Virus record (IMG/VR): IMGVR_UViG_3300031539_000081
Span: 1 to 44,660 of that record
Reading direction: 5' to 3' (one strand)
From: a virus
DNA: 44,660 bases
How positions within the stretch are numbered: position 1 is the first letter of the stretch; each line of letters opens with the position of its first letter. The translations under genes and the position numbers were made by a program. The notes beneath the pieces were generated by a model. The model was not told the origin of the DNA. It was given only the letters and a program-made list of their open reading frames with translations, and ran no database searches. Below, in pieces: positions 797 through 43,748 of this stretch.

Positions 797-1090
797 TTCG
801 CCGAAAGGCTTCGCGCCGCCCGCGCCGCCGCCGACATGACGCAAGGCAACGTCGCGAGCGCGCTAGGGTATACACCGCAAACCGTTGCCAATTGGGAGCG
901 CGATCGAACCGAGCCGTGCGCGACGGATCTCGCCCGCCTCGCCGCGGTCTATCGAGTGTCGGCCGACTGGCTCTTGACCGGCGCCGCGCGCATGCCTCAC
1001 CGCTTCGAGCGCGCAACGTGCGCTCACGGCGTGCCCGTCGCCGAGCGTTGCCGAGCGTGCGAGCACGAGCCCGCCGGGGCGATGGCATGA
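782..1090 (+). CDS. XRE-family helix-turn-helix regulator with C-terminal Cys cluster
   Basis: This 102-residue protein has a typical XRE/Cro-cI domain in its first 65 residues: FAERLRAARAAADMTQ, then GYTPQTVANWERDRTEP as the turn and recognition helix, then a conserved SADWLLTG ending. The C-terminal tail holds CAHG, CRAC and further Cys/His residues, a possible small metal site. ATG 782 is chosen because it begins directly at the domain; ATG 761 and TTG 737 are in frame upstream but would overlap the candidate promoter. Its stop overlaps the primase start (ATGA at 1087). It probably controls the early operon and perhaps the divergent late side. No protease-cleaved cI-type domain is present. 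Confidence 0.85.
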   Translation: MALKGFAERLRAARAAADMTQGNVASALGYTPQTVANWERDRTEPCATDLARLAAVYRVSADWLLTGAARMPHRFERATCAHGVPVAERCRACEHEPAGAMA

Positions 1091-3495
1091 TCCATCGAGT
1101 GAGCCTCTTTCGCGGCGCCCGCGACAACACGCCGACGCCCGCCGAGTTCACTTGGCAAGGCTTCGTCGAGGCGCTCTTGCCTCACGCCTTCGAGCCCGAA
1201 GACTCGAAGTTGTCTTGCGACGCGTTCTCGCCCGCCGCCTTCGACGGCTTGCGCTCGAACGACAACGTGCTCGGGCTCTCGCTCTTCGTCGCCGATCTCG
1301 ACGGTGTGACCGACGAGCAAGTCGCCGCCTTCGTCGCCGCCGCCGCCGCTCACGGTTGGGCAATGCTCGTTCACTCGACGTGGCGACACCACACCGATCC
1401 GAACCGCTTGCGCGCCGTGTTGCCGCTCTCGCGCGAGGTGAGCGCCGACGAATGGCCCGAAGTGTGGTCGGCGATCAACGACGCGCTCGGCGGGCTCTCG
1501 GATCCTAAGTGCAAGGATCCGGCGCGACTGTATTTCGGCGCGTTCGCGCCCGACGTGCCCGAAGCGCGCGAAGCCGCCTTCGATCACGTCTTCGACGGCT
1601 CGCTCGTCGACGTCGACGCCTTGCTCGGCATGCCGCCCGCTAACGCGCCGCCCGACTCGGGCGACCCCTTGCCGCCCGTCGGTGGTGAAACGGTCACGCG
1701 CGAGTCGCTAGAGCGCTTCGCGACGGCATTGCGACGCAAGCGCGACGAGCGGTCGCAAGAGCGCGGCGAGTCTCTTCGACGTGTCGTCGCCGGCGAGGCT
1801 TTCGCCGAGCCCGGATCGATCGACAACACGTTGTTCGCCTTGTCGCTCGTGCTCGCCGAACGTTGGCCCGACGCCGCGCCCGATAGCCTCGCCCGACACT
1901 TCGAAGCGAGCCTCGCGATCATGGCTCGCAACGCGCCCGACTATGCAATGTCGGTCGAGCAAGCCTCATACAAGATCCGCCGCGCGCAACTCGCGATCCG
2001 CGAACGCCAACAACAAGAGCAAGCCGAGCACAACGCCGCGCTCGAACGACGGATCACCGACGCGTTCGGCACCGACCGCTCGCACCCCTACACCGACGAA
2101 GAGATCGCGACGTTCCCGTCGCATCGTTGGATCATTCAAAAGGGGCGGTCTTATTATTCGCTCGTGCTCGGCGCCTACCATGGCCCCTACACGCAAGACG
2201 AAGCGCAAACGGCGATCGTTCGAGATCTAGCGCCAGCGCACACCGCCGGCGTCGAGTTGTTCACGATCAACACGCAAGGCGAACGAAGCGTGAAGCCGTT
2301 GCCGAGGATCGTGCGCGAGTTCGGCTTCGTCGCGAGCGACGTCGCCGTGTCGCTCGGCGCGCAACGCGCCTACTTCGACGAAGGCACGCGAACGATCGTC
2401 GAGGCGCCGTGCCCGTTGCGCAAGATCACGCCGCGCTATCACGCCGAGATCGACGCGTGGTTGTGCGCGCTCGCCGGCCCGACGCACGTGCACTTGCTCA
2501 AAGCGTGGATCGCGGCGGCGACGCGCCTCGACGTGCCTTGCACGGCGTTGTTCTTGACCGGGCATAAGCACACCGGAAAGAGCGTGTTACCCGAGGGGCT
2601 CTCGCGCTTGTGGTCGGCGCTCGGCTTTCCGACGCCGCTCGAAGACGTGCTCGGGACCAATTTCAACGACGCGCAATTGCGTTGCCCGCTCGTGTTCGCC
2701 GACGAGCGCTTGCCGACCGATCACCGCGGTCGAGTTCTAAACGCCGAGTTGCGGCACTACATACAAGCCCGACGCCGACCGCTTCGGCGCAAGTTCATGC
2801 CGAACGCCGACATGCTCGGCGCCGTGCGCTTAATTATCTCGGCGAACAACGAAGAGATCCTCGCGACAACCGAGAACCTTTCGAACCACGATATCGGCGC
2901 GATCGTCGATCGATATTTGCATATCGTTTGCCGCGTCGAAGCCTTCGAACTACTGCAACGGATCGACTCGTCGAAGTGGGTCGAAGGCGACATGATCGCC
3001 GAGCACGCGTTGTGGTTGCGCGACAACAACACGTTCGCCGATAACGGTCGCTTTCTCGTGCACGCCGAAGACAACGCGTTGCACTCGCGCTTGATCGCGT
3101 CGTCGGGCATTCGCTCGGCGGTGTTGCAGTTTTGCGTGGGCTACTTGCTCGACCCCGGCCCGCTCGACGCGAACGCCCGCGGGCAGGGTTGGATCCGCGT
3201 TCACGACGGGCGCTTGTGCGTCAACACGCAAGCGCTCGTGCGTTGTTGGTCGTTGTATGTCTCGAACGAGCATTGCCCGCCGACGGGGCTCTTGTCGCAA
3301 GCGCTCGCCGCGCTCTCGACCGACTATCGACCGCGGTTGCATATGCCCGGCGGGCGCCGCCCGAACTACCGCGTGATCGATCCCGATCACCTCACTTCGT
3401 GGGCGATCCGCGAGGGGCTCGCGACGCCCGACGAGATCACCGAAGCGCTCTCACACAACACCGAAGACAACGCGAAACACCTCGCGCCCAACTAA
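1087..3495 (+). CDS. primase-helicase (AEP-like primase fused to SF3/D5-like helicase)
   Basis: This 802-residue replication protein has two parts. The N-terminal part has an acidic pair ADLDG (D70, D72), a basic strand NRLRAVLPLSR (about 106-116) and KCKDPARLYFGAF (about 141-153). That order matches archaeo-eukaryotic-type primase/polymerase domains found next to phage helicases. The C-terminal part has Walker A GHKHTGKS (492-499) and an acidic Walker B ending ADER (538-541), followed by an arginine-rich strand as in D5/DUF5906-type helicases. Such proteins open the origin and prime synthesis. It is the first replication gene after the regulator and overlaps it by 4 bases. The primase fold is inferred from motif order; the ATPase is clear. 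Confidence 0.8.
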   Translation: MIHRVSLFRGARDNTPTPAEFTWQGFVEALLPHAFEPEDSKLSCDAFSPAAFDGLRSNDNVLGLSLFVADLDGVTDEQVAAFVAAAAAHGWAMLVHSTWRHHTDPNRLRAVLPLSREVSADEWPEVWSAINDALGGLSDPKCKDPARLYFGAFAPDVPEAREAAFDHVFDGSLVDVDALLGMPPANAPPDSGDPLPPVGGETVTRESLERFATALRRKRDERSQERGESLRRVVAGEAFAEPGSIDNTLFALSLVLAERWPDAAPDSLARHFEASLAIMARNAPDYAMSVEQASYKIRRAQLAIRERQQQEQAEHNAALERRITDAFGTDRSHPYTDEEIATFPSHRWIIQKGRSYYSLVLGAYHGPYTQDEAQTAIVRDLAPAHTAGVELFTINTQGERSVKPLPRIVREFGFVASDVAVSLGAQRAYFDEGTRTIVEAPCPLRKITPRYHAEIDAWLCALAGPTHVHLLKAWIAAATRLDVPCTALFLTGHKHTGKSVLPEGLSRLWSALGFPTPLEDVLGTNFNDAQLRCPLVFADERLPTDHRGRVLNAELRHYIQARRRPLRRKFMPNADMLGAVRLIISANNEEILATTENLSNHDIGAIVDRYLHIVCRVEAFELLQRIDSSKWVEGDMIAEHALWLRDNNTFADNGRFLVHAEDNALHSRLIASSGIRSAVLQFCVGYLLDPGPLDANARGQGWIRVHDGRLCVNTQALVRCWSLYVSNEHCPPTGLLSQALAALSTDYRPRLHMPGGRRPNYRVIDPDHLTSWAIREGLATPDEITEALSHNTEDNAKHLAPN

Positions 3496-3504
3496 GGATC
3501 AAAC

Positions 3505-4098
3505 ATGACACTCGCACCGAAGCCGAACCCCGCCACGCAAGCCCGAGTCGACGCCCACGACGGCGCCGCCCGAGCGAAAGAGAAAGCCGACGCCGCCGAG
3601 TTGACGCTCGCGCGCTACCACGCGCAAGCGACCGCGCTCGGCGTACAGTCGATCCGCTTCGAGATCGAGCCCGACGGGATCGTCGTGATCCTTCGAGGCA
3701 ACGTCGAAGGGCGCAACGTAAGCGTCGAGGTGTTGTGCCCGAACGGCAAGCCGTTCGCAACGTTCGCCGTCGCCGCGCTTCACTCGTTCGAGTCGGGCAT
3801 GTCGACGAAGACGATCTCGCTCACGCCGAACACGCCGCCCGACGTGCCATTGCCCGAGCCCGAGCACGACAAGGCAACCGCCGCCGAGATCGCGAAGCGC
3901 GCCGCCTACTCGCAACACGGCGACATTCGCAAGCCCGCGCCCGCTGGCGCCGGCAAGCGCAAGCCGCTCGGCTTGCCGTTGTGCAAACAATGCGAGACAC
4001 AACCCGTATATCAGGCAACCGCCGAGTTTTGCGGTTCGGCGTGCGCGCGACAATGGCACACCGACAACGCCGGGCGGATCGCGAAGTCGAGTCGGTGA
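3505..4098 (+). CDS. hypothetical protein with C-terminal zinc-ribbon-like motif
   Basis: This 197-residue protein has no recognised family. Residues 1-50 form a charged helix rich in Ala and Lys. A beta-rich middle (QSIRFEIEPDGIVVILRG and following) leads into a Pro-rich linker. The C-terminus has CKQC and, about 14 residues on, CGSAC, a four-Cys zinc-binding pattern. A good ribosome site (AAGGATC) lies before ATG 3505. It sits between the primase and a Cas4-like nuclease and overlaps the latter by 4 bases (GTGA), which suggests a role in DNA metabolism. Confidence 0.75.
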   Translation: MTLAPKPNPATQARVDAHDGAARAKEKADAAELTLARYHAQATALGVQSIRFEIEPDGIVVILRGNVEGRNVSVEVLCPNGKPFATFAVAALHSFESGMSTKTISLTPNTPPDVPLPEPEHDKATAAEIAKRAAYSQHGDIRKPAPAGAGKRKPLGLPLCKQCETQPVYQATAEFCGSACARQWHTDNAGRIAKSSR

Positions 4099-5360
4099 AC
4101 GCGCCGGCGACATACACGTCGAGCGCGAGCCAGATCTCGACCGCCGAGGATTGCTTGCGCAAGTGGGCGGGGCTCAAGATCGAGGGGCTCGAAGACAAGG
4201 GCAACCGTTTCTCGCAACAAGGCTCGCGCGTGCACAAGATCTTAGAACATTGGTTCGTCGACGCCACGCCGCCGCCGGCAACCGACGACGGGCGGATCGC
4301 GCAAGCGATCTTGCGGCACTTGCCGCCGCCGCAAACGCCGGGGCTCACGGTCGAGCGCTACTTGACGATCACGCTCGGCGGCGTACCGTTCCGCGGTTAC
4401 GTCGACGTGTCGATCATTCACGAGCGCGACGTGCCCTTCGTGAGCGACCACAAGACGACGAGCGATCTCGTGTGGGCGAAGAGCGCCGAAGATCTCGCGA
4501 GCGACGTACAGTCGACGCTATACGCCGCCGACGGCATGTTGCTCGCCGCCGGCGAGACCGAACTCGACGCGTTGCCGCTCGACGCGCCGTGCGATTTACA
4601 GTGGACCTACGGGCGCACGCGCGGCGCGCCCGTGTCGTTGCCCGTTGTTCGTCGAGTCACGCTCGAAGAGATCCGACCACGGCTCGACAAGACCGCCGCG
4701 ACGGCGACGCTACTTCGAGAACTCAAACACGCCGAGCCCCATTGGCTCGACGTGCCGCACGACGCTAGCGCGTGCGACAAATACGGCGGTTGTCCTTTCA
4801 AGGGCAACGGTTGCAACCTCACACCACAAGAACGGATCCAATCGATCATGGCACAAGAAACACAACACTCGGCATTCCTGAACAAGTTGCGCAACAAGCG
4901 CGCGAACGGCGCGGGCACACCGACCGAGATACACCCCGCGCCCGCCGCCGTCGCGACGTCGAGCGGCGTCGTGAACCCGCCGAGCGCGCCGGCAACCGCC
5001 GCCGCCTCGCCGCCCGAGCCCGAGCCCGAGCCCGCCAAGAAACCACGCAAGCCGCGGCAAACGAAAGCCGCCGCCGCGCAAGCCGCCGCCGCGCAAGCCG
5101 CCGCCGACGGTGCCGAAGTTGCCGCGACGGGCGTCGACACGACCGAACTCGACGCCGCCGTCGCTCGGGCGAACGCCGAGCCCGCGACGCCGGCGCCACA
5201 AGCGACCGTGAGCGCCTCGACGGCGACGGCGGGCACGCGTGCGGCTCAACCCGTCGCGCCGCCCGTAGCGGGCGCCGTGGCGGGCAACGTGCTCGACATG
5301 CTCAACTCTCAATTCGTCGCCGGGTTCAAGGCGGGGTTCGAGGCGGGGCGCGACTCATGA
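4095..5360 (+). CDS. Cas4/RecB-type PD-(D/E)XK nuclease with Ala/Pro/Glu-rich tail
   Basis: This 421-residue protein starts at GTG 4095, overlapping the previous stop. The nuclease core has GYVDV (D104) and SDHKT (D118, K120), the metal-binding D-(D/E)xK pattern. Cys20 together with Cys227, Cys233 and Cys240 matches the four-Cys iron-sulfur clamp of Cas4 and AddB nucleases. From about residue 265 the sequence becomes low-complexity Ala/Pro/Glu/Lys for over 120 residues. It ends in a predicted amphipathic helix (VLDMLNSQFVAGFKAGFEAG). Such nucleases resect DNA ends in phage recombination and replication. The long tail is not part of the core family and may tether the enzyme to a partner. Confidence 0.8.
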   Translation: MNAPATYTSSASQISTAEDCLRKWAGLKIEGLEDKGNRFSQQGSRVHKILEHWFVDATPPPATDDGRIAQAILRHLPPPQTPGLTVERYLTITLGGVPFRGYVDVSIIHERDVPFVSDHKTTSDLVWAKSAEDLASDVQSTLYAADGMLLAAGETELDALPLDAPCDLQWTYGRTRGAPVSLPVVRRVTLEEIRPRLDKTAATATLLRELKHAEPHWLDVPHDASACDKYGGCPFKGNGCNLTPQERIQSIMAQETQHSAFLNKLRNKRANGAGTPTEIHPAPAAVATSSGVVNPPSAPATAAASPPEPEPEPAKKPRKPRQTKAAAAQAAAAQAAADGAEVAATGVDTTELDAAVARANAEPATPAPQATVSASTATAGTRAAQPVAPPVAGAVAGNVLDMLNSQFVAGFKAGFEAGRDS

Positions 5361-6348: not shown

Positions 6349-6351
6349 GAC

Positions 6352-8076
6352 ATGCCCGACATATTCCAACAAGCGGCGCGGGCGGCGGGCGTGAATGCCG
6401 TTCGCTTGAACGACGAGTTGCGGCGGATCGAACGCTTGCCGCGCCGCTTGTGGGATGCGAGCGCCGAGAGCCTCGCCGACGAGTTGACCGAGATCCTCAA
6501 GACGCCCGACGGGCGAATGCGGCTTCGACCGATACAAGCCGTCGCGCTCGCCGAGATCGGCACCGTGGGCGGGCTCTTCGGCCCGCTACGGGTTGGCGCG
6601 GGCAAGACGTTGATCACGCTCTTAGCGCCCGCCGTGGCGTTCGCCGAGCGCCCGTTGTTGCTCGTGCCCGCGTCGCTCGTCGGCAAGACGAAGCGCGACG
6701 AAGACTTGTTGCGCTATCATTGGCGGTTGCCCAATTGGATCCGCGTCATGTCTTACGAATGGCTCGGGCGCGTGCAAGCCGCCGAAGCGCTCGACGCCTA
6801 CGAACCCGATCTCGTGATCGCCGACGAAGTGCACCGACTCAAGAACCCGCGCGCCGCCGTGACGCGCCGCGTTCGTCGATACATGGCGAACCATGTCGAC
6901 ACGAGGTTCGTCGGCATGTCGGGCACGATCACGAAGCGCTCGATCAAAGACTTCGCGCACGTGCTTCGTTGGACGCACAAGCCCGTCGACGCGCCGTTGC
7001 CGCGCACACACACCGATCTAGAGTTGTGGGCTGACGCGCTCGACGAGCGCAAGGGGCAAACCCGTCGAGCCGACCCCGGCGCGCTCGCCGTGTTCTGCAA
7101 CGACGACGAGTCGACGTTGTGGGCGACCGAGCCTCGCAAGGCGGCGCGCCGTGCGTTTCGCCGGCGGTTGATCGAGACGCCCGGCGTCGTCGCTACGAAA
7201 GAAACACCGATCGACGCGTCGATCGTGGTGAACGCTCTCGAACCGAAGTCGACGCCGTGGATCCGACAAGCCTTCGAGACTCTTCGTTACACGTGGGAAA
7301 CGCCCGACGGGCACCCCATTGCCGACGGGCTCGCAATGTTTCGGCACGCGCGCGAACTCGCGCTCGGGTTCTATTACGTGTGGGATCCGCGCCCGCCTCG
7401 CGACTGGCTCGACGCGCGCAAGGCATGGGCGGCGCACGTGCGACGCGTGCTCGCTCACTCGCGCACGCTCGATAGCGAGTTGCAGGTTAGGCAACGCGAC
7501 GGCGACGTCGAGGTGTGTCGGGCATGGCTCGACGTGCGCGACACGTTCGAGCCGAACACGATCCCGCGATGGATCGACGAGAGCGTCGTCGAGTTCTGCG
7601 CCCGCTGGCTCAACCGACACGGCGGGATCGTTTGGACCGAACACACTTGTTTCGCCGAGCGGCTCGCCGAGTTGTCGGGCGCGCCCTACTTCGGGCGCAA
7701 GGGGCTCGACGCGAACGGCAACATGATCGAGAACGCGACCGGCCCGATTATCGCGTCGATCGCGAGCAACTCGACGGGGCGCAACTTGCAAGCGTGGTCT
7801 AAGAACTTGATCACGAGCATGCCGGCAAACGGCATGCAAACCGAGCAACTCTTCGGGCGCACACACCGCGACGGGCAACTCGCCGACGAAGTTCGCTTCG
7901 ACGTGCTCACGACATGCGCCGAGCACGTCGGCGCGTTTTATCAGGCAACCCGCGACGCCGAGTTCGTGTTCGACGCGACGGGCTCACCGCAAAAGATCTT
8001 GTTGGCGGATCACGACATGCCGACACCAACTTCGGTTGCTCTTCGAAGTGAAGCGCAATGGGATAAGCAACTCTGA
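6352..8076 (+). CDS. SF2 DEVH helicase
   Basis: This 574-residue helicase shows Walker A VGAGKT (81-86), DEVH (158-161), motif III SGT (190-192) and motif VI EQLFGRTHRDGQ (ending Q509). The Q-GRTHRDGQ form of motif VI and the ADEVHRLKN Walker B are typical of SNF2/phage DEAD-like SF2 helicases. ATP-driven remodelling or unwinding at forks or recombination intermediates is expected. The ATG at 6352 follows the preceding stop by three bases. It has no fused nuclease domain. Confidence 0.85.
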   Translation: MPDIFQQAARAAGVNAVRLNDELRRIERLPRRLWDASAESLADELTEILKTPDGRMRLRPIQAVALAEIGTVGGLFGPLRVGAGKTLITLLAPAVAFAERPLLLVPASLVGKTKRDEDLLRYHWRLPNWIRVMSYEWLGRVQAAEALDAYEPDLVIADEVHRLKNPRAAVTRRVRRYMANHVDTRFVGMSGTITKRSIKDFAHVLRWTHKPVDAPLPRTHTDLELWADALDERKGQTRRADPGALAVFCNDDESTLWATEPRKAARRAFRRRLIETPGVVATKETPIDASIVVNALEPKSTPWIRQAFETLRYTWETPDGHPIADGLAMFRHARELALGFYYVWDPRPPRDWLDARKAWAAHVRRVLAHSRTLDSELQVRQRDGDVEVCRAWLDVRDTFEPNTIPRWIDESVVEFCARWLNRHGGIVWTEHTCFAERLAELSGAPYFGRKGLDANGNMIENATGPIIASIASNSTGRNLQAWSKNLITSMPANGMQTEQLFGRTHRDGQLADEVRFDVLTTCAEHVGAFYQATRDAEFVFDATGSPQKILLADHDMPTPTSVALRSEAQWDKQL

Positions 8077-8605: not shown

Positions 8606-10432
8606 ATGACCGACCGACGAGAACCCGTTGCCTTCGACACCGAAACGGCGTTGATCGCGCCGGGGTTACAAGCGCCGCCTCTTGTGTGCGTGAGTATCGC
8701 CGACGCGCTCGACTCTGAACTCGTGCACCACGTCGAGGCGCGCGAATGGATCGAAGGCTTGCTCGCAAGCGATCGGGTTCTCGTCGGTCACAACGTCGCG
8801 TTCGACTTCGGTGTCGTCGCGGCTCGTTGGCCCGATCTCATGCCGGCGATCTTCGCGAAGTATGAACGCGGCGAAGTCGTCGACACTCTAATCAGGCAAA
8901 AGTTGATCGACATTGCGTCGTCGTCGCGCGGGTTCAAGCGCTATTCGCTCGAAGAACTCGCGCGACGTTGGCTCGGGATCAAGGTCGACAAGAGCGACGA
9001 CACATGGCGCAAGCGTTACGGCGAACTCTTCGACGTTCCGCTCGCGTGGTGGCCACAAGAGGCGCGCGACTATGCACTCGACGACGCTCGGTTGACGCTC
9101 GCGATCTGGCGCGCTCAAGAGTCGCAAAACCGACACCTCGCCGACGAGTTCAGGCAAGCCCGCGCGGCGTGGTGGCTTCACCTCATGCGTTGTTGGGGCA
9201 TGCGAACCGACGGCGCCGCCGTCGAGGCGCTCGCGACGAAGTTGCAAGCGAGGCACGACGCGCTCGAAGGCGGGCTCGTGTCGGCGGGGCTCATGCGCGC
9301 CGACGGCTCGCGCAACGTGAAAGCCGCCGGCGACCGCATGCGCGCCGTTTGCAAGTCGAAGGGGCTCGCGCTCGTCGTGACGCCGAAAGGCGCGCCTAAG
9401 CTATCTCACGAGGTGTGCGAGGCGGTCGGCGACGAGTTGCTCGAACACTATGCCGAGGTGTCGGGGCTCAAAACGAAGTTGAGCAACTTCGTCGCGCTCT
9501 TGCGCAAGGGTACGTCGACGCCGTTGCAACCCTACTTCGATTCGTTGAAAGAAACGGGGCGCACGTCGTCGTCGCCGAACGTTCAAAACTTGCCGCGAAA
9601 GGGCGGGGTTCGCGAGTGTTTCGTGCCGCGCCCCGGCAACGTCTTCGCCGCCGCCGACTATTCGGGTTTTGAGTTGCGGTCGGTGTCTCAAGTAATGCTC
9701 GCCGTCGGTGTGTGCACGCGCTCGAAACTCGCCGACGCGCTCAACAAGGGGTTCGATCCGCATCTTGAGATCGCTCGACGGATCGTCGGTTGCACTTACG
9801 CCGAAGCCGAGCGCCGACTCGCCGCCGGCGACGAAGAGATCGACACGGCGAGGCAAGTCGGCAAGGTCGCGAACTTCGGCTTTCCGGGCGGGCTCGGGAT
9901 CAAGACGTTCGTCTTGTATGCGCGCAAGGGTTACGGCGTCACGATCACCGAAGACGAAGCCGCCGCGCTCAAACGCTATTGGTTCGAAGCATGGCCCGAG
10001 TTCGTGCCTTACTTTGCGTGGATCTCGAACCAATGCGAGAGCGGGCCGGCGAAGATCGAGCAAGTGTTCGTTCGACGCTACCGCGGCGGCGCGTCGTATT
10101 GCGAGGCGGCGAACTCGATGTTTCAAGGGCTCGCCGCCGACGCGGCGAAACACGCCGGGTTCTTGATCGCGCGGGCGTGTTACGTCGACACGGCGTCGCC
10201 GTTGTTCGGCGCGAGGATCGTCAACTTCGTGCACGACGAGTTCATTGTCGAAGTTGCCGAAGAGCGCGCCGCCGAAGCCGCCGAAGAGTTGTCGCGCCTC
10301 ATGGTCGAAGGCGCGTCGAAGTTCTTGCCCGACGTGCCGCCGATCGCCGTGCCCTACCTCATGCGGCGTTGGTCGAAGGGCGCGAAGCCCGTGCGAGACA
10401 ACGAAGGGCGGTTGATCCCGTGGGCGGCGTGA
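8606..10432 (+). CDS. polA: family A DNA polymerase with 3'-5' exonuclease
   Basis: This 608-residue polymerase has an N-terminal proofreading domain with D11/E13 in AFDTET, D67 in GHNVAFDFG and a YALDDARLT ExoIII motif. The polymerase domain has motif A AADYSGFELR (D351), the O-helix RQVGKVANFGFPGG (R416, K420, F424) and motif C FVHDEF (H543, D544, E545). There is no 5'-3' exonuclease domain, as in T7-type phage enzymes. The residue matching the conserved O-helix Tyr (Klenow Y766) is Gly, a variation seen in some phage polymerases. It starts right after the ssDNA-binding-like gene and overlaps the resolvase gene. Confidence 0.95.
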   Translation: MTDRREPVAFDTETALIAPGLQAPPLVCVSIADALDSELVHHVEAREWIEGLLASDRVLVGHNVAFDFGVVAARWPDLMPAIFAKYERGEVVDTLIRQKLIDIASSSRGFKRYSLEELARRWLGIKVDKSDDTWRKRYGELFDVPLAWWPQEARDYALDDARLTLAIWRAQESQNRHLADEFRQARAAWWLHLMRCWGMRTDGAAVEALATKLQARHDALEGGLVSAGLMRADGSRNVKAAGDRMRAVCKSKGLALVVTPKGAPKLSHEVCEAVGDELLEHYAEVSGLKTKLSNFVALLRKGTSTPLQPYFDSLKETGRTSSSPNVQNLPRKGGVRECFVPRPGNVFAAADYSGFELRSVSQVMLAVGVCTRSKLADALNKGFDPHLEIARRIVGCTYAEAERRLAAGDEEIDTARQVGKVANFGFPGGLGIKTFVLYARKGYGVTITEDEAAALKRYWFEAWPEFVPYFAWISNQCESGPAKIEQVFVRRYRGGASYCEAANSMFQGLAADAAKHAGFLIARACYVDTASPLFGARIVNFVHDEFIVEVAEERAAEAAEELSRLMVEGASKFLPDVPPIAVPYLMRRWSKGAKPVRDNEGRLIPWAA

Positions 10433-27905: not shown

Positions 27906-28337
27906 CTAGTTGCCGCCGTCGAACCGTTCGAGCGACGCGACGCGGATCGTCCATTCGCGCGCCGTCGGCTCGCGATCGAACGACACGTCGGGCGGCTTCG
28001 AGATCCAACACTCGGCGGCGGCGTATAGCGCGAGCCCTTGGTTGTCTTTCACGAGCAACGGGCCGACGCCCGCGCCGTTGCCGGCGAGGCGGTCGACGTT
28101 GTTCAAGCCCGACAAGAGCGCGTTGCCGTCGCTAGATTGCATGAGGATCACCGACACCGTTGCGCGGCGGTCGTTCGTCTTCGAGCGCGTCACCTCGCCG
28201 TCGGTCCCTACCTTGTCGAGAAAGTCGTCGGCCTCTTGCTCGATGCGCAAGAACTCGCCGTCGTCGTAACCGCTCAAGATCGGCAAGCCCGCGATCACGA
28301 CCGTGACCTCGTTCGCGTCGTATACTTTGAAACCCAT
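27906..28337 (-). CDS. tail tube protein (DUF3277)
   Basis: This 143-residue protein matches the DUF3277 tube family: early VYDANEVTVVIAGLPILSGY, then KVGTDGEVTRSKTNDRRATV and VILMQSSDGNALLSGL, with a closing domain around EWTIRVASLERF. It forms the rigid inner tube that the sheath drives through the envelope. Its place between sheath and chaperone is canonical. Confidence 0.9.
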   Translation of the reverse strand: MGFKVYDANEVTVVIAGLPILSGYDDGEFLRIEQEADDFLDKVGTDGEVTRSKTNDRRATVSVILMQSSDGNALLSGLNNVDRLAGNGAGVGPLLVKDNQGLALYAAAECWISKPPDVSFDREPTAREWTIRVASLERFDGGN

Positions 28338-28352: not shown

Positions 28353-29681
28353 TTAGACCGAGAGAACGCCCGTGATCACCAATTGGTGGATCGCGCCGGC
28401 GAGTGTTGCGGTGAAGTTGACGTCGGGCAAGACGCGCCCCGCCTTGTCGGCGGGATCAATGTCGGCGACGAGGGGCGCCGTGACGACGGGCGCGGGATCG
28501 GCGGCGAGCCCGCCGGCGGTGATCCCTTGGTTGAGTTGCGCGAGAACTTGCGCCGTCATGAGCCCGACACCCTTGTCGGTGTAGGGCACCTTGGGATTGT
28601 TGATCAACACGCCGAAGATCCGTTCTTTGATCCGCGCGTCGAGCCAGTCAATAAAGCGAGTCACGTCGACGTATTCACCCGACGCGGTGATCCCGAACGT
28701 CGTCACGTTCACGCCGGCGATCGTGCGATACACGTTGCCGCCCTTCGACTCGATCACGCTCACTTGCCCGCCGGTCAAGTTCGCGTCGACTTGCACGCTC
28801 GCGAGAGTCTTGAACGCCCACGTGCTCGAACCGGGGTCGCTCGGCAAACGGTTGCCGCCCCATGCCGCGCCCGTCCAATTGAGCAAGCGCGCTTGCGAGT
28901 AAATGATCGCCGTGCGCGCATAGGCGAACGATTGCAGATCCGACATGACGTCGGTTGTCACCACGTTGTCGACGACTTCGGTGTCGCTCGTGTTGCAAAG
29001 AAAGATCTTCTTTCGCGCTTCGACCCACGCGGCGGCGGCGAGGATCTCGGCTTCACTGTTCGAGTCTAAGAGCAACGCATACCAACCGTCGGGATCGACG
29101 GTCTCGATCGCCGTCAAGTCGGCGGCGAGACCGGGGTCGGCGGTCGTGTCTTTGAATTGCAAGTCGTCGGGCTTGTCGCTCACGCGAACATAGTCGACGA
29201 GATCGCCGGCGGTGTCGGTCACGACCGTGATCACACCGACGGCGGGCGTCGAAGAGATCCCGACAATAGCGTCGATCAACGCGTCGAGCGCGACGGCAAC
29301 CGTCGTCGGCGTCGCCGCGGCGAGCACGGTATACGAGATCGCCGTCGTTGTGACGCCGACCACAATGTCGAACTCGTATACGTAACCCTCGGTCACGTTG
29401 ATCACTTCGAGCGTGACCGTTTGCGCGGCGGGCGTCGTGCGCTTGCCGATCTTCCACTTGGCGGGCTTCGGGTTCTGCGACGCGATCTTCGTCGCGATCA
29501 ACACGGCGGGATCGGTTGCGGGCCAACCGTCGTCGGTCATGGCGGTGAGCGACTTATACTCGCGAACGACGCTCGCGAACACGTTGTGGAAGCGCGCGAT
29601 CAACGGCGTGCCGAAGCCGAGCCGCGACACCGTTGTCGTTTGCGCGGTGATCGAAACTGAAATGATATCTTCGAGGCTCAT
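28353..29681 (-). CDS. tail sheath protein (DUF3383)
   Basis: This 442-residue protein matches DUF3383 sheaths of small myophages: N-terminal VSITAQTTTVSRLGFGTPLI, a middle DGWYALLLDSNSEAEILAAA with AWVEARKKIFLCNTSD, and a C-terminal WLDARIKERIFGVLINNPKV and KVPYTDKGVGLM. The presence of this gene shows a contractile tail. The region 100-190 is a beta-rich insertion domain that would point outward. Confidence 0.92.
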   Translation of the reverse strand: MSLEDIISVSITAQTTTVSRLGFGTPLIARFHNVFASVVREYKSLTAMTDDGWPATDPAVLIATKIASQNPKPAKWKIGKRTTPAAQTVTLEVINVTEGYVYEFDIVVGVTTTAISYTVLAAATPTTVAVALDALIDAIVGISSTPAVGVITVVTDTAGDLVDYVRVSDKPDDLQFKDTTADPGLAADLTAIETVDPDGWYALLLDSNSEAEILAAAAWVEARKKIFLCNTSDTEVVDNVVTTDVMSDLQSFAYARTAIIYSQARLLNWTGAAWGGNRLPSDPGSSTWAFKTLASVQVDANLTGGQVSVIESKGGNVYRTIAGVNVTTFGITASGEYVDVTRFIDWLDARIKERIFGVLINNPKVPYTDKGVGLMTAQVLAQLNQGITAGGLAADPAPVVTAPLVADIDPADKAGRVLPDVNFTATLAGAIHQLVITGVLSV

Positions 29682-31675: not shown

Positions 31676-32647
31676 TTAGCCGCTCAGATCGTCCATGTAA
31701 GCGATCGCGAGCGGGTATTGCACGCGCACGCCGCCGACTCGCGAGTGAGTCGGGATCACGAACTCCAAGTTGCGCGCTTGCGGCGGAAACTGTTCGAAGG
31801 GTTGCGGCTCGACCGCGGCGAGAACCTCTTCGGATCGCTGGTAGGCAATCGCGCGAGACACACCGCCGGCGCCGGCGGCGTTCAACTTGTTCCACTGATC
31901 GACGTCGGTGATATACGGGTTGTTGTCGAGAAAGAAACGCAACACGGTCTTGTCGGCGTCGCCCGTCGTCGACATGGGCGTCGAGTTGATCCGCTGAAAC
32001 GCGATGTTCGAAAGCAAGAGCGTGTTCGGAATGAACGTTTCGAGCGTCGCGAGAATGATCGAGTTCACGAGTTCGTTCAGATCCTCAATCATCTGTAGCG
32101 GCGTCGCGATCGACGTCACCCACGTGCCCGTGACGGCGGGCACGATCGGCACGTTCGCGTTGTTCGACATGCCGCCGAGCCCGGCGTCGGCATTGCCGAA
32201 CGCAACAATGTCGTCGAACGCTTGCTCATGAGCACGACGCGCGGCGCGAGCGCGGCGAGCGTCGAGTTGTGATCCCGACATGGCGGCGCGCCTCATGTCT
32301 TGGATCGAGAACCCGTAGCTAGCGCCGAGCGACTTGATCGGTGCGGGAAACTCTTTCGCGAGCGAGTCGACGCGCGGCAAGTCGTCGGCGTAGTTCGCGA
32401 TCAACTTCGCCATGCCGAACATGTTCCACTGACGATAAGTGAAGAACTCGGCGCCCGCGTCGACGCTCGTGTCGATCGGAACGAACCGCCGCGCTTTCAA
32501 CTCGGCGTATTTCACGTCGTAGGTTTGCGCGTAGATGTGTTCGAGTTGCCGAGCGAGCGCGGCGGTCTCGCCGGCGTCGAGTCGAATGTTGCAGTGCTGA
32601 TATACGTCGTCGCGCAAGCGCGCGAGAAATGCTTCGGTGAATGCCAT
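31676..32647 (-). CDS. major capsid protein (DUF2184-like)
   Basis: This 323-residue protein is typical of major capsid proteins in this group of myophages: a helical N-arm, then RRFVPIDTSVDAGAEFFTYR, NYADDLPRVDSLAKEFPAPI and GFSIQDMRRAAMSG, and a C-terminus RVGGVRVQYPLAIAYMDDL. It sits directly after the small cement-like protein. An AAGGGATC ribosome site precedes ATG 32647. HK97 fold is expected for the family. Confidence 0.9.
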   Translation of the reverse strand: MAFTEAFLARLRDDVYQHCNIRLDAGETAALARQLEHIYAQTYDVKYAELKARRFVPIDTSVDAGAEFFTYRQWNMFGMAKLIANYADDLPRVDSLAKEFPAPIKSLGASYGFSIQDMRRAAMSGSQLDARRARAARRAHEQAFDDIVAFGNADAGLGGMSNNANVPIVPAVTGTWVTSIATPLQMIEDLNELVNSIILATLETFIPNTLLLSNIAFQRINSTPMSTTGDADKTVLRFFLDNNPYITDVDQWNKLNAAGAGGVSRAIAYQRSEEVLAAVEPQPFEQFPPQARNLEFVIPTHSRVGGVRVQYPLAIAYMDDLSG

Positions 32648-37226: not shown

Positions 37227-37228
37227 GA

Positions 37229-39144: not shown

Positions 39145-39151
39145 GCGCCCC

Positions 39152-39877
39152 TTATAGCCTACACCGCCCGATCGCGTCGAATGCCTCGCCGAAGACGTTG
39201 CCGCCGTCCGCCTCGTCGAGACACGTCGCCTCGTCGCGCATGCTCGGCGTGACCGGCGGCAACCACACGATCACGTTCGCGTGTGTCGGTTGGCTCGACG
39301 GGCCGTCGGGCGTGTCGAAGGCGATCCGCCTCGAAGGCACACACAACGGAAAGTCGATCGGTTGCGGCACGTCGAGCCCTTGCGCCGAGCGCAAGATCTC
39401 AAGAGTGAAGCCGACGAAGATCGCCGCCTCGACTTCGCCCGTGCGCCATGCTTCGGCGAGCGTTGCCCACCACAACGCCGCGTTCGAGCGCGTGCCGCAA
39501 CCCTTGAACGCGTCGGGCACGAGCCCGCCCGGCGGGTTGCAGAACACGCGACCGCACCACGGCTCGACGAGCCCGTCGGGCGCGAGCCCGCCCGGCCCGT
39601 AGAACGCCGCCGCGCGCACGGTCTCGTTCGCGAGCGTGCACGACGCGGGGTCGAGATCGATCTCGCCGAGCGTTGTGCGCGCCGCCTCGATGATCTCGCT
39701 CGGCGTGTAGTGCTCGGCGCTCTTCGACGAGTGTTGCGCGAGCCCGACTCGCACGCCGCCCGAGCCCTTGCACGCTCGACACTCGCCGCCGCGCGACGAC
39801 TCGCCGCCGCCGCCGCACGCGACACACTCGACGAGCCCGTGTTCGAGTCGAAGGCGGTGTCGTTCGAGCGGGCTCAC
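39152..39877 (-). CDS. dam: phage N6-adenine methyltransferase (Dam type) with N-terminal Zn ribbon
   Basis: This 241-residue protein starts at GTG 39877 (GTGA overlap). It has HSSKSAEHYTPSEIIEAART, GEIDLDPASC (72-80) and VFCNPPGG (NPP at 114-116, catalytic motif IV), the layout of phage Dam-type methylases (PF05869). It would methylate adenine, plausibly in GATC, which is unusually frequent here. Residues 18-37 hold C18, C21, C33 and C36 in a DnaJ-like CxxCxGxG arrangement that is not part of the methylase core. Methylation could protect phage DNA from restriction or mark it for packaging. Confidence 0.85.
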   Translation of the reverse strand: MSPLERHRLRLEHGLVECVACGGGGESSRGGECRACKGSGGVRVGLAQHSSKSAEHYTPSEIIEAARTTLGEIDLDPASCTLANETVRAAAFYGPGGLAPDGLVEPWCGRVFCNPPGGLVPDAFKGCGTRSNAALWWATLAEAWRTGEVEAAIFVGFTLEILRSAQGLDVPQPIDFPLCVPSRRIAFDTPDGPSSQPTHANVIVWLPPVTPSMRDEATCLDEADGGNVFGEAFDAIGRCRL

Positions 39878-40071
39878 GACGGAACCTCGATCCCGTGCTC
39901 GTCGCGCGCCGCCTTGCGCCGCGCTTGCAACTCTTCGAGCCCGGCGACGATCTCGGCGATCGTCGTCGGCGAGATCGTTTTGAGCAACTCGATCGCTTCG
40001 TCGTCTTCGAGATCCTCGAAGTCGATCTCGTCGACGAGCGCGATCAACTTCGTGAGTTCGTGCGCGTTCAT
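39874..40071 (-). CDS. small acidic helical protein
   Basis: This 65-residue protein starts at ATG 40071, overlapping the regulator's stop (ATGA). It is helical and acidic (MNAHELTKLIALVDEIDFED, DDEAIELLKTISPTTIAEIV, GLEELQARRKAARD). It lies between a small XRE regulator and the methylase and overlaps both, so all three are co-translated. It could be a partner or inhibitor of either. No family is recognised. Confidence 0.65.
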   Translation of the reverse strand: MNAHELTKLIALVDEIDFEDLEDDEAIELLKTISPTTIAEIVAGLEELQARRKAARDEHGIEVPS

Positions 40072-40334
40072 GGCGACACCTCGCCGACGAGACGCGTCTC
40101 GATCTCGACGCCGAGCGCGGCGGCGCAACGGTCGAAGAGCGCTTCGGTGATCGAGGCGCTCGCGAAGATCTCGACGATCCGCGGTTGCTTCACGCCGAGC
40201 CGCTCGGCGAATTGCTCTTGAGTTAGCCCCGACTCGTCGAAGGCTTCGCGGATCAAGTCGGCGAACGGGCGTTCGCGACTCGGGCCGGCGACAGTAGACT
40301 CGCGCCGTTTTCGGCGTCGTTGGTTCTTTGGCAT
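40068..40334 (-). CDS. small XRE-family regulator
   Basis: This 88-residue protein has a basic N-terminal arm (NQRRRKRRES) and an XRE domain FADLIREAFDESGLTQEQFA, ERLGVKQPRIVEIFASASIT, then a closing helix. It resembles antitoxin-type or Cro-like regulators. It is transcribed divergently from the plus-strand transglycosylase gene, and a perfect inverted repeat lies between them. An AATAAGGAAAC ribosome site precedes ATG 40334. It probably represses both directions. Confidence 0.8.
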   Translation of the reverse strand: MPKNQRRRKRRESTVAGPSRERPFADLIREAFDESGLTQEQFAERLGVKQPRIVEIFASASITEALFDRCAAALGVEIETRLVGEVSP

Positions 40335-40344
40335 GTTTCCTTAT

Positions 40345-40370
40345 TAGCACGAGCGCGACAACTCGTGCTA
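40345..40370. promoter_or_regulatory. 9-bp inverted repeat between divergent genes, probable operator
   Basis: TAGCACGAG (40345-40353) and CTCGTGCTA (40362-40370) are perfect 9-bp arms with an 8-base spacer. A second overlapping dyad, ACAACT/AGTTGT, spans 40358-40375. The 47-base gap holds little else, so it must also contain the start signals for both genes. The adjacent XRE protein is the likely ligand. Confidence 0.65.
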
Positions 40371-40381
40371 GTTGTGCGCCC

Positions 40382-40924
40382 ATGCTACAAGCCGCAACAA
40401 TCGCCGCGTTAATCGCGCTGCTAACCCCGCCCGCCAACCACAAGCCCGCGGGCGAAGAGCCCGACGACGTGCGCGCTCGATACGCCGTGATCGCCGAAGC
40501 CGTGCACGGCGAGGCGGGCGACGACACGAGCCTCGCGTTGTTCTTGCTCACGGTCGCGAAGCACGAGTCGACGTTTCGTCGCGACGTGCACTCGGGCGCG
40601 ATGCGCGGCGACAACGGGTTCGCGTGGTCGCTCTTTCAACTCAATATCGGATCGCGCAAGACGACGACGAAGATCCCGCAAACCGACTTTACGCTCGGCG
40701 AGATCGTCGGCGTCGACGACGCGTCGACGAAGCGCGCGACGAAGGCGGCGTCGGTGTATCTTCGCCCGGCGATCAAGCGTTGCAACGGCGCGCCCCGTTG
40801 CGTGTTCATGAACTATGGCGGGCTCTCGAAGAAAGAGTCGCGCAAGCCGTCGCGCGCGAAGCAACTCGACGCCCGCGTCGCGACATACCATCGACTGGCG
40901 GCAAGAGTCGCCAAACGAAAGTGA
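40382..40924 (+). CDS. lytic transglycosylase (SLT-like), plus strand
   Basis: This 180-residue protein from ATG 40382 begins with a short hydrophobic, possibly secretory segment (MLQAATIAALIALLTPPANH). It then has VHGEAGDDTSLALFLLTVAK with HESTFR (catalytic Glu62), and AWSLFQLNIG (83-90), matching the 'ES ... Q' motifs of SLT-type transglycosylases. A second domain ends with CVFMNYGGLSKKESR. It is the only plus-strand gene in the right half, so it is expressed apart from the late genes. It could help entry or lysis, or modify the wall early. ATG 40382 is preferred over upstream starts because it begins at the signal-like segment. Confidence 0.75.
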   Translation: MLQAATIAALIALLTPPANHKPAGEEPDDVRARYAVIAEAVHGEAGDDTSLALFLLTVAKHESTFRRDVHSGAMRGDNGFAWSLFQLNIGSRKTTTKIPQTDFTLGEIVGVDDASTKRATKAASVYLRPAIKRCNGAPRCVFMNYGGLSKKESRKPSRAKQLDARVATYHRLAARVAKRK

Positions 40925-40962
40925 GCCCCGCGCGCTACGAACGCACGGGGCACGCGGGGCTC
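40923..40962 (+). terminator. GC-rich hairpin between convergent genes
   Basis: GAGCCCCGCG (40923-40932) and CGCGGGGCTC (40953-40962) form perfect 10-bp arms around a 20-base loop. It begins inside the transglycosylase stop codon and lies before the converging gene end at 41000, so it can serve both strands. No U-run follows. Confidence 0.6.
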
Positions 40963-40999
40963 GTGTCGGCGTTGATAGGGCAACGCCGGCGCCGTGAGG

Positions 41000-41191
41000 C
41001 TAGCTCATGCCGTGCTCGTCGAGCAAGGCATGCCCGAACAAGCCGAACGCCGTCGCGGCGTCTTGCGCCGTTGTGAGGCGCTCAAAGAACCACGCCCGCC
41101 GGTGTTCGCCTTCGTCGACGAGAACGGCGAAGACTCGCACGGGGCGACCGCGTTCGAGCACAACCGCCAGCAAGATCTGGTAGGGGTTCAC
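41000..41191 (-). CDS. small hypothetical protein, end of accessory chain
   Basis: This 63-residue protein starts at GTG 41191, overlapping the previous stop by 4 bases. It has PYQILLAVVLERGRPVRVFA, VLVDEGEHRRAWFFERLTTA and AFGLFGHALLDEHG, a strand pair then helices. It is the last of a chain of six genes with GTGA overlaps. No function is recognised. Confidence 0.65.
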   Translation of the reverse strand: MNPYQILLAVVLERGRPVRVFAVLVDEGEHRRAWFFERLTTAQDAATAFGLFGHALLDEHGMS

Positions 41192-41355
41192 GGCTTGCAC
41201 TTGCCTTCGAGCGTTCGGGCGATCCGTTCGAGCGCTCGCGCTTCGTCGCTCTTTCCCGCCGCCGTGGCGGGTTGTGAGGCGCCGACGAGCGCGGCGAACA
41301 CGCAACCCGCGACGAAGGCGGCGAGCGCACTAGCGGCGCCGTGGTAGCGGCTCAC
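41188..41355 (-). CDS. small membrane or secreted protein
   Basis: This 55-residue protein starts at GTG 41355 (GTGA). One hydrophobic segment (ASALAAFVAGCVFAALVGAS) is followed by PATAAGKSDE, resembling a signal peptide with an AxA-like cleavage site, then a short charged helix ALERIARTLEG and a Cys near the end. It may be an exported peptide or a membrane anchor. Too short for confident family assignment. Confidence 0.6.
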   Translation of the reverse strand: MSRYHGAASALAAFVAGCVFAALVGASQPATAAGKSDEARALERIARTLEGKCKP

Positions 41356-41567
41356 GTCGCCCTCGACACGTGCCGACACTGGCGCGAGCAACACGCGCCG
41401 CAACGACCGTTCACGCACCACGCGCCGAACCCCGGCGCGCCGAGCCGCGGCTTGCTCTTGCCGCACGCGTTGCACACCGCCCGCACAACGCGCCCGTCGG
41501 CGTCGAGGTGTGCGCGGCAACACGAGCACGAGAACGCGTGCGGATAGCACCTCACGGCGGCGCTCAC
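41352..41567 (-). CDS. Cys-rich small protein (zinc ribbon-like)
   Basis: This 71-residue protein starts at GTG 41567. It contains eleven Cys: one in RCYPH, then CSCC, CNAC, C..GRCGACC and a final CRH, with His residues between. The arrangement suggests two zinc-binding knuckles. Such proteins often bind nucleic acid or a host protein. It overlaps both neighbours by 4 bases (GTGA). Confidence 0.65.
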   Translation of the reverse strand: MSAAVRCYPHAFSCSCCRAHLDADGRVVRAVCNACGKSKPRLGAPGFGAWCVNGRCGACCSRQCRHVSRAT

Positions 41568-41710
41568 GACGCCCGCCCTTCGTTGCGTCGCGCTTGCTCT
41601 TCGGCGTCGGCTCGTTGCTTCGGCGTGCCCGACTTGTGCATATCGCGCCACAACGCCGCGCACGCTCGAAGGCGGGCGGGCGTCATAGGCTCGAAGCGTG
41701 GGGCGCTCAC
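41564..41710 (-). CDS. small basic helical protein
   Basis: This 48-residue protein starts at GTG 41710 and ends inside the next start (GTGA). It is Arg/Ala-rich and mostly helical (MTPARLRACAALWRDMHKSG followed by TPKQRADAEEQARRNE). Length and charge fit a small DNA- or protein-binding factor. It would be below the length cut-off of many gene callers, but its overlap pattern matches all neighbours. Confidence 0.6.
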   Translation of the reverse strand: MSAPRFEPMTPARLRACAALWRDMHKSGTPKQRADAEEQARRNEGRAS

Positions 41711-42060
41711 GGCGACACCTCGACGGCGTGCCCGTCGCGATCGTAGCCCTTCGACATGCAAGCCTCGCACACCACGCGCTCGGCGCCGCTCGGCGCGAAG
41801 ACGACGCACCCCGTCGTCGGCTCGGCGCAATCGGCGCACGGTCGGCGCTCGACGCCGAGCAACTCGACGGCTTCGCCGAAGTAGTAGCGGGCGCCGCACG
41901 AGAACCCGTTGCGCTCGAACTCGGCGGGGCTCACGCCGCCGTAATAGCCCTCGGCGCCGGTGTAGTGATCGACGGCGATCACGACGCGCTCGACGCCGTG
42001 CTCGTCGACGAACGTCGTCGCCTCGCCTCGCCAGTCGGGCCGGCGCTCGCCGGCGCTCAC
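41707..42060 (-). CDS. hypothetical protein with zinc-finger-like Cys pairs
   Basis: This 117-residue protein starts at GTG 42060 (GTGA). The first half is beta-rich (WRGEATTFVDEHGVERVVIA, VDHYTGAEGYYGGVSPAEFE). The second half has RRPCADCAEPTTGCVVF and AERVVCEACMSKGY, a CxxC-x(n)-CxxC pattern. It is probably a small metal-binding protein of the accessory cluster. No named family. Confidence 0.65.
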   Translation of the reverse strand: MSAGERRPDWRGEATTFVDEHGVERVVIAVDHYTGAEGYYGGVSPAEFERNGFSCGARYYFGEAVELLGVERRPCADCAEPTTGCVVFAPSGAERVVCEACMSKGYDRDGHAVEVSP

Positions 42061-42554
42061 GACGCCACCTTGATCGCGGCGTCGCGGGCGGCTTGCTCGC
42101 GCACGTCTTCGAGTTCGTATCGTGCGGCGTCGGCTTGCTTCGTCGCGGCGACGGCAACCCGCGCGGCGTCGTCGCTCACGACGCCCGCCTCGACGAGTCG
42201 CACGAGCACGTCGACGGGATCGACGTAGTTCTCGATCTTCGAGTAGCGCAAGAACGAGTCGAGCGAGTCGTCGACGACGAGCGCGTCGAGAAACTCGGCA
42301 TAGTCTTCGAGGCTTCGGCGCCCGAGATCGATCCCGTAACCGCTCAACCGTTGAACGGTGATCGTGCGGATCGTGATCGTCTCGTCGCCGCCGCCGAAGT
42401 TCTCGACGCTCTCGCGCACGGTCACGAAGTATCGACCGGGCTCGAACGTCGCCGCCTTGCGCCAGTCGTGGCGGGCGCGCCCGTCGGCGGCGGGGTTGAG
42501 GATCGGGCTCGTCGTGGCGGGCAAGGTGTAGGCGCCGGATCGTAGGGTTCGCAT
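42057..42554 (-). CDS. hypothetical protein, head of accessory chain
   Basis: This 165-residue protein has residues 35-75 reading as strands (PGRYFVTVRESVENFGGGDE, TITIRTITVQRLSGYGIDLG). A helical second half follows (SLEDYAEFLDALVVDDSLDS and DAARYELEDVREQAARDAA). No known family. It is preceded by a hairpin and an AAGGAAA ribosome site, so it begins a transcription or translation unit. Confidence 0.7.
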   Translation of the reverse strand: MRTLRSGAYTLPATTSPILNPAADGRARHDWRKAATFEPGRYFVTVRESVENFGGGDETITIRTITVQRLSGYGIDLGRRSLEDYAEFLDALVVDDSLDSFLRYSKIENYVDPVDVLVRLVEAGVVSDDAARVAVAATKQADAARYELEDVREQAARDAAIKVAS

Positions 42555-42616
42555 GGGTTCGGTTCTCTTTCGCGTTGGGGGCGCCGTGGCGGGCGCCGGT
42601 TCGTTTCCTTATACCA

Positions 42617-42656
42617 CAAGAGCCCCGCGACGCTCGACGGCGTGGCGGGGCTCTTG
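42617..42656 (-). terminator. strong hairpin downstream of DUF932-like gene
   Basis: CAAGAGCCCCGC (42617-42628) and GCGGGGCTCTTG (42645-42656) are perfect 12-bp arms with a 16-base loop. On the minus strand it follows the DUF932-like gene by 15 bases and precedes the next gene. There is no U-run, so it may work as a partial terminator or mRNA barrier. The stem core AGCCCCGC is shared with the hairpin at 40923. Confidence 0.65.
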
Positions 42657-42671
42657 CGGGGCGCAATGGGT

Positions 42672-43748
42672 CTAGTTCGTGTCGGCGAGCATGGCTTCGA
42701 GCAAGCCCTTGCCGAGCAAGTCGGCGTCGACGCCGGCGTCGGTCGCTTGCCCGACGGTCATGCTCTCGACGCGACCGTCGGCGAGGATCACGTCGACAAG
42801 GTGCAAACACTCTTCGACGCGCTTGCCGCGCGCGCCGAACAGCATCGAACCGACCGCCGAGCCGCGCGTCGTTCGGCTCGTGCCATCCTCGTTGCGGTCG
42901 ACGAGATACGTGCCCGCGTTCCAAAGCGTGGCGAGGTTACCCGCGCCGCCGACGCGGTTGCAGGGTAGGGCGGCGGCGACGCGTGCGGCGGCGCGGCGGT
43001 TCTCGGCGAGCGTGACCGCACGAGCGCTCGGCGCGGCTTCGCCCGGCGCGGCGACGGCTTCGGGAAAGAACGCGTCGAAGGCGGCACGGGCGGCGGCGCC
43101 GGGCAAGTGCACGAGCGCGGCGCGGTCGAAGAGCGCCGACACGGCGGCGCCTTGCTCGGCGACGGCGACCATGCCGGCGGCGAGGCGGTTCACTTTCTCG
43201 TCGAGCGACGCGGTGTGGCGGATCTTGCACCAATCGCCGCCCGAGCGCTTCGCCGAGCCGAGCATGCTCGCCATTTGGTTTGCGCAAAACGGGCGCCCGA
43301 CAATGCCGCCGCCGACGAGCAACGTGTCGCCGTCGAAGCCGTCGCCGAGCACGAGCGTCGAGGTGAGCCCGCTCTTGTGGTTGCTCTCGACCGAGAACAT
43401 TGCCGCGACCTTAGAGCCCCAACCGTGCGAGCCGAACGGCTTCGCGCCGGCGGCGACGGCGGCGTTCACGAGTTCACGCCATTGCGCGGCGCTCGTCGCG
43501 TTGAACCGTGAGCCGTTGATCCCGAGCACGCGGCGCCCGCCGTCGCGATACTCGCCGACGATCGCGCGCTTGTTGCCCGCCTTGATATGCGAGCCGCCGT
43601 CGTTCGCGAACACGCTCGCCTCGCGCACGTCGACGGGCCATTGCCCGGCGCGCTCGGCGTTGTCAATCATCTCGGCGGCGGTCGACACGGCGAGCGTGAG
43701 CGGGGTTCCGAAAGTGGCGGCGGCGGCGATGTTGTTTTCGAGGGTCAT
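42672..43748 (-). CDS. DUF932-like protein
   Basis: This 358-residue protein starts at ATG 43748. It has an N-terminal MTLENNIAAAATFGTPLTLA, a central VVGRPFCANQMASMLGSAKR-like region (read in part as FCANQMASML) with KIRHTASLDEKV, and a C-terminal NLATLWNAGTYLVDRNEDGT followed by a short MLFGARGKRVEECLHL end. The 'CxNQM ... K-x-R-H-T ... LW..GTY.VD' order is that of DUF932 phage/plasmid proteins, whose role is unknown. It is the first gene after the repeat-bearing island, so it may be expressed early or strongly. Other identities are possible. Confidence 0.6.
   Translation of the reverse strand: MTLENNIAAAATFGTPLTLAVSTAAEMIDNAERAGQWPVDVREASVFANDGGSHIKAGNKRAIVGEYRDGGRRVLGINGSRFNATSAAQWRELVNAAVAAGAKPFGSHGWGSKVAAMFSVESNHKSGLTSTLVLGDGFDGDTLLVGGGIVGRPFCANQMASMLGSAKRSGGDWCKIRHTASLDEKVNRLAAGMVAVAEQGAAVSALFDRAALVHLPGAAARAAFDAFFPEAVAAPGEAAPSARAVTLAENRRAAARVAAALPCNRVGGAGNLATLWNAGTYLVDRNEDGTSRTTRGSAVGSMLFGARGKRVEECLHLVDVILADGRVESMTVGQATDAGVDADLLGKGLLEAMLADTN

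Follow-up and report, generated by a model that had tools for sequence, protein, structure and literature searches.

Genome-wide avoidance of CTG/CAG and many other short words, and apparent sparing of words that overlap GATC, in a 44,660-bp phage genome

The virus record IMGVR_UViG_3300031539_000081 (G000; called the window here, the whole stretch of 44,660 bp that was analysed) is a phage genome that carries a word-exclusion signature over its full length (positions 1 to 44660, not assigned to a strand), and in which the trinucleotide CTG and its complement CAG are nearly missing. The question that this genome raises is what removes so short a word from coding DNA in all frames. The original prediction, which drew on the sequence alone, proposed a constraint at the DNA level and named three candidate causes: restriction or another host defence that reads a CTG-containing motif, avoidance of primase start sites, and imitation of the host genome. 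The reading that we regard as probable is an extreme avoidance of many restriction-type words combined with Dam-type shielding at GATC. Selection on double-stranded DNA would purge short words that serve the hosts' restriction-type defences as recognition sites, among them palindromic type II-like hexamers and tetramers as well as asymmetric words. CTG/CAG would be the core common to many of the purged words, so its loss would be the sum of context-dependent exclusions and would follow no single 3-bp rule. In a second layer, the adenine of GATC would be methylated, probably by a Dam-family enzyme of the phage's own. A restriction-type defence fits best of the three proposed causes, but the words are many and are not one CTG-containing motif. 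The data are fitted less well by host imitation, by primase avoidance, by mutation bias, or by a uniform reader of 3 bp.

The whole window holds 81 copies of CTG and 81 of CAG (162 together), where about 808–839 of each word are expected from composition and 442–456 from a dinucleotide Markov model, giving observed/expected ratios of 0.10 and 0.18, respectively. The depletion is found in each 1-kb bin. The local counts of the original prediction, 5 CTG/CAG in 1081–3480 and 2 in 9001–10380, are exact, and the near-exclusion that it described for the coding region (1087 to 43748, both gene directions) is borne out, with 144 copies left and each of the three codon phases depleted. Synonymous codons were exchanged among positions, which preserves the proteins and the codon usage. 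Against this shuffle, CTG was found 21 times in phase 1 (81 expected, z-score −9.0) and 34 times in phase 2 (160 expected, z-score −17.2), and CAG 14 times in phase 1 (99 expected, z-score −11.0) and 8 times in phase 2 (98 expected, z-score −12.4). Both words therefore lie below their shuffled counts, with z-scores of −9 to −17, and not level with them as the prediction said they would if it were wrong. Within frame, Leu is encoded by CTG 18 times, TTG 394 times, and CTC 666 times, and Gln by CAG 46 times and CAA 365 times; TTG/CAA are the most over-represented trinucleotides of the window. Codons with a two-fold pyrimidine choice end in C or T at 2222:434 generally and at 19:38 before TG, which agrees with the predicted use of T for C at codon borders. 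A protein-preserving composition null gave 0.10 overall for CTG/CAG, with equal depletion in sense and antisense, where counts on the two strands are not independent observations. The depletion in all phases and on both strands implies that the constraint acts on double-stranded DNA, and the predicted DNA-level constraint is backed further by the exemption of words that overlap GATC, described below.

The loss of CTG depends on the flanking bases. Decision trees were trained on half of the genes and tested on the other half. In the held-out genes of the window, contexts predicted to be forbidden contained 39 of 921 expected CTG (0.04) and contexts predicted to be free contained 45 of 69 (0.65). 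In the relative G002 the held-out counts were 9 against 407 expected in forbidden contexts and 79 against 59 expected in free ones, and context differences remained significant in five of five low-CTG sets once flank effects had been divided out. Among the most forbidden contexts of the window are CCTGG (1 observed, 167 expected), AGCTG (0 observed, 87 expected), and GCTGC (3 observed, 140 expected), which fall under the common type II specificities CCWGG, AGCT, and GCWGC. CGACTG (19 observed, 21 expected) and CTGCAA (15 observed, 15 expected) are neutral, and GATCTG is also free. A uniform exclusion of CTG as a 3-bp word was the initial hypothesis and was dropped after the analysis of flanking contexts. 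It would need a single reader of CTG/CAG, such as a clustered regularly interspaced short palindromic repeats (CRISPR) protospacer adjacent motif (PAM) or a nuclease or nickase of very short specificity, which we consider improbable. CTG/CAG is the most often strongly depleted trinucleotide of the phage family, the AT-rich TAA aside, and PAM depletion in phages is documented (PMC4246573 and PMC12174588). However, the more than tenfold spread by flanks in held-out genes, with some contexts neutral, would not be explained by a single 3-bp reader or by a PAM, the mark of which is a flank-independent loss of a 2–4 bp word, and a PAM reader would be indifferent to overlap with GATC.

Beyond CTG/CAG, the window also avoids GGA/TCC, TGG/CCA, CATC/GATG, AGCT, GGCC, and many palindromic hexamers, all of which the original prediction had missed, as well as CTCC and ATGGA. 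GGA stands at 0.28 of expectation and CATC/GATG at 0.15. Among palindromic hexamers with an expectation of at least 4, 18 of 56 are absent from the window, including CTGCAG, CAGCTG, CTCGAG, GAGCTC, CCCGGG, and GGGCCC; the corresponding numbers are 2 of 64 in phage lambda, 3 of 32 in myxophage Mx8, and 4 of 64 in the nearest deposited relative. The window thus shows words far below composition expectation on both strands, as restriction avoidance would leave them. The 18 absent hexamers are palindromic, and CTG/CAG, GGA, CATC, and ATGGA are non-palindromic. Rules based on half-palindromes or palindrome centres were rejected, as AGCT and GGCC are excluded yet GATC is enriched.

The exclusion of ATGGA reaches the proteins. 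No synonymous codons avoid ATG followed by GA, so the removal of ATGGA is paid in amino-acid changes. In 14 ATGGA-excluding genomes (including the window, G004, G005, G007, and L063), Met followed by Asp or Glu occurs 38 times against 251 expected, and the control, Met followed by Asn, Gln, Lys, or Arg, occurs 393 times against 353 expected. Ten other genomes have 163 Met-Asp/Glu pairs against 189 expected, and the window by itself has 1 against 21 expected. The DNA word ATGGA is purged at the cost of amino-acid changes. Mutation bias would neither delete Met-Asp/Glu pairs nor spare GGATC.

The sparing of GGATC is part of a second pattern. In the window, observed/expected ratios are 0.06 for GGAC, 0.04 for GGAG, 0.07 for GGATG, and 0.3–0.4 for GGAA, GGATA, and GGATT, and GGATC reaches 2.69, on par with AGATC (2.47) and TGATC (2.86). 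GATC as a whole is about threefold above the protein-preserving null. Across nine genomes, ATGGATC occurs 62 times against 22 expected and the remaining ATGGA 18 times against 256 expected, the exempt genome group having been chosen after the pattern was seen. The window retains eight ATGGATC sites, one at 7569 to 7575 on the plus strand and the others starting near 8746 and 34456 on the plus strand and near 1091, 15895, 19159, 21783, and 38506 on the minus strand. The remaining two retained ATGGA sites, at 27950 and 31692 on the minus strand, read ATGGACGATC. Tests for an effect of distance from GATC on nearby CTG or GGA found none, and overlap alone matters. That an excluded word is tolerated with its adenine inside GATC would imply a reader blocked by N6-methyladenine, and the simplest reading is that the GATC adenine would be methylated and that this would block the reader of GGA or ATGGA. 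ATGGATC is not spared in G004, G005, and G007, where 2 copies were seen and the expectation, once corrected for GATC bias, is about 11. Host defence might also read very short, non-palindromic, adenine-containing words (CAG, GGA, GAG), with a reading that depends on the flanks and is sensitive to N6-methyladenine, and with the phages purging these words and shielding the rest by Dam. Such a defence would be unlike any restriction system characterised to our knowledge, and we hold it to be rather unlikely.

The candidate for the methylation of GATC is a gene at 39152 to 39877 on the minus strand, which matches phrog_111 (DNA methyltransferase, E-value 2.7e-12) and is listed as a Dam-family DNA N6-adenine methyltransferase. 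The protein features a Cys-rich, zinc-ribbon-like N-terminus, an IDLDPAS motif, and NPPGG in place of D/N-PP-Y/F/W. A DnaJ-like cysteine-rich N-terminal part was also seen in several of its homologues. Three of nine family members match the Pfam family PF05869 (Dam; best E-value 1.2e-4), and the window protein gave no match to it. The structure model (predicted local distance difference test, pLDDT, 75.6) matches viral DNA N-6-adenine-methyltransferases with an E-value of 1e-4, and its PDB matches, M.EcoKI and M.TaqI, are weak (E-value 3e-3 at best). The protein is assigned to the Dam family with moderate confidence, by profile and moderately by fold, and is the proposed writer of the GATC shield. 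The three relatives in which ATGGATC is not spared have no homologue of it (G004) or distant ones at 40–43% identity (G005, G007).

Several observations weigh against avoidance combined with a GATC shield, in addition to the choice of the exempt group noted above. The word set is not covered by any single known restriction specificity, and phages rarely show avoidance of asymmetric sites or of type I, IIG, and III sites (Rusinov 2018, PMC6286503). The NPPGG motif is invariant in the nine methyltransferase homologues and departs from the usual catalytic D/N-PP-Y/F/W. The tie between the exemption and the window gene is loose: G008 has the ATGGATC exemption without a homologue, which suggests that the shield may also come from a Dam of the host or from some other gene, and GATC is enriched in G004 and G021, both of which lack a close homologue. 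Additionally, CTG is partly exempt beside GATC in four genomes, where GATCTG occurs 95 times (53 expected) and CTGATC 3 times (61 expected). The adenine partner of CTG lies outside GATC in both words alike, and the CTG part of the shield is therefore less clear.

Relatives of the window were collected, and a tree was built, from the family A DNA polymerase (8606 to 10432, plus strand). The low-CTG state, defined as a ratio below 0.35, changed at least five times on this tree, and among close relatives the CTG ratio is 1.5 in G004, 0.7 in G010, and 0.1 in the window. The coding DNA of the window holds no CTGCAG, and the same is true of almost all tabulated relatives, with G001 as the exception; CTCGAG is missing from the coding regions of most of them. 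Mox of Mx8 is reported to modify CTCGAG and CTGCAG, the same two hexamers. Against this general absence, CTCGAG is enriched 2.4- to 3-fold in G002 (L093–L095) and in L063; a second methyltransferase motif that might account for the threefold excess was sought in G002 and was not found. AAAT/ATTT occurs in 1 to 6 copies against 49–111 expected, on both strands, in G001, G002, G003, and G010 (L090–L097, L104–L106), and we know of no reader for this word. A search among the relatives for gene content that cleanly tracks low CTG found none. GATC is nearly or wholly missing in L043 (0 of 68), L052 (0 of 63), and L077–L079, unlike in the window group. The contig Ki3-D2 (L131), from a metagenome-assembled genome (MAG), has zero CTAG, CCAGG, GGACC, and several palindromic hexamers.

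These relatives bear on two further explanations. The primase of E. coli, DnaG, prefers to start at CTG, and this coincidence of trinucleotides is the one point that speaks for an avoidance of primase start sites. G004 and G007 carry similar replication genes and yet exclude CTC/GAG and over-represent CTG in most or all codon phases, which disfavours this proposal of the original prediction. The exclusion is also flank-dependent and reaches unrelated words, and we consider primase avoidance very improbable. Self-avoidance, in which a phage-encoded nuclease degrades host DNA and spares a phage that lacks its words, is quite improbable as well. The ATGGA exclusion is common to a whole group of relatives, as an inherited enzyme would predict. 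However, the word list turns over among close relatives, 162 CTG/CAG are still present in the window, and the nucleases recognised there are exonucleases of the replication or recombination type.

Host imitation, the third proposed cause, came out weak. Polymerase relatives occur in three MAG contigs (G027, G028, and G029) that all belong to one phylum, which looks like Myxococcota, and further matches were found in Oligoflexia and Bdellovibrionales bins; the host group suggested in this way is provisional, and the tRNA genes of the window gave no hint at a host. About 100 genomes of the host phylum have CTG at 0.46–1.5 of expectation, mostly 0.6–1.0, and none is near 0.10. A phage that imitates, or mutates like, a CTG/CAG-poor host is an unlikely source of the signature. 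The DNA of that phylum trends the same way, coding and non-coding CTG rates are alike in the relatives, and TTG/CAA leads the over-represented trinucleotides as noted above. The phylum's own signature (CG about 1.3, TCG about 2, GATC 1.2–3.7) is one toward which the window leans with its high CG, TCG, and GATC, but the CTG of the window is outside the sampled host range, no host locus falling below 0.46. CTGCAG and CTCGAG are not generally depleted in pooled host-phylum DNA, which also shows no CTGATC/GATCTG asymmetry, and the close relatives diverge in direction.

The two ends of the window share an overlap of about 200 bp, which makes it probable that the genome is complete. It is that of a contractile-tail phage. 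Genes were called with a simple self-trained caller; they run rightward up to about 11.8 kb and nearly all leftward beyond. Those recognised include a primase/helicase-like replication protein (1087 to 3495, plus strand), the tail sheath (28353 to 29681, minus strand; phrog_205, E-value 6e-90), the major capsid protein (31676 to 32647, minus strand; PF09950, E-value 4e-56), the family A polymerase, a tape measure protein, a portal, a terminase, and an amidase endolysin. A megablast search with the first 25 kb as query gave no match among 50,697 phage records, and the closest isolates reach a polymerase identity no higher than about 30%. The non-coding DNA was predicted to be richer in CTG/CAG, which holds in part. 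The island at 370 to 781 (no strand, 48% GC) has an excess, with 10 copies, but this is largely because of repeat copies, several lying within copies of the CTGAGACA / GTGAGACAC repeat (about 413–694), and several other non-coding blocks hold zero. The TGAGACAC-like array at 413–694 has direct and inverted copies and is possibly a replication origin or operator array. A second island (43749 to 44247, no strand, 57% GC) has 5 CTG/CAG and repeats of the form GTATAAGG..GCCTTATGGCACG. Repeats of the form ATAAGG..CCTTATGGCACG at 43799–43815, 43922–43953, and 44141–44172, close to the small terminase gene, are perhaps phage promoters.

Dozens of words are purged together in this phage, a dipeptide is lost from the proteome of ATGGA-excluding relatives, and an apparent methylation imprint is readable in plain sequence data. 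If this reading is true, metagenomic sequence alone could reveal which defences uncultured phages face and which words their methylases protect. A literature search found no earlier report of CTG/CAG exclusion in phages. Restriction-site avoidance itself is well known, but is usually mild, palindromic, and examined site by site. The best account is that this known avoidance is extended here: it takes in asymmetric words, has a trinucleotide as its core, covers many words together, and leaves an apparent imprint of methylation. The survey of double-stranded DNA phages by Rusinov et al. (2018, PMC6286503) found avoidance mainly of orthodox palindromic type II sites, and the window resembles its cases in that palindromic type II-like sites have vanished altogether from a phage of lytic type. 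It differs in that 18 hexamers are gone together, a trinucleotide is cut tenfold, and the asymmetric ATGGA (and AAAT in relatives) is near zero. PAM depletion in phages (Kupczok and Bollback 2014, PMC4246573) is likewise a defence-driven, genome-wide loss of a short word, whereas the depletion in the window is context-dependent and apparently shaped by methylation. Phages that carry adenine methylases against restriction, such as Dam (PF05869) and Mox of Mx8, a DNA adenine methylase by its annotation and its published description (PMC6070905), share with the window a methyltransferase gene on the phage; in the window, the protection would in addition be visible in the sequence, as retained words that overlap GATC.

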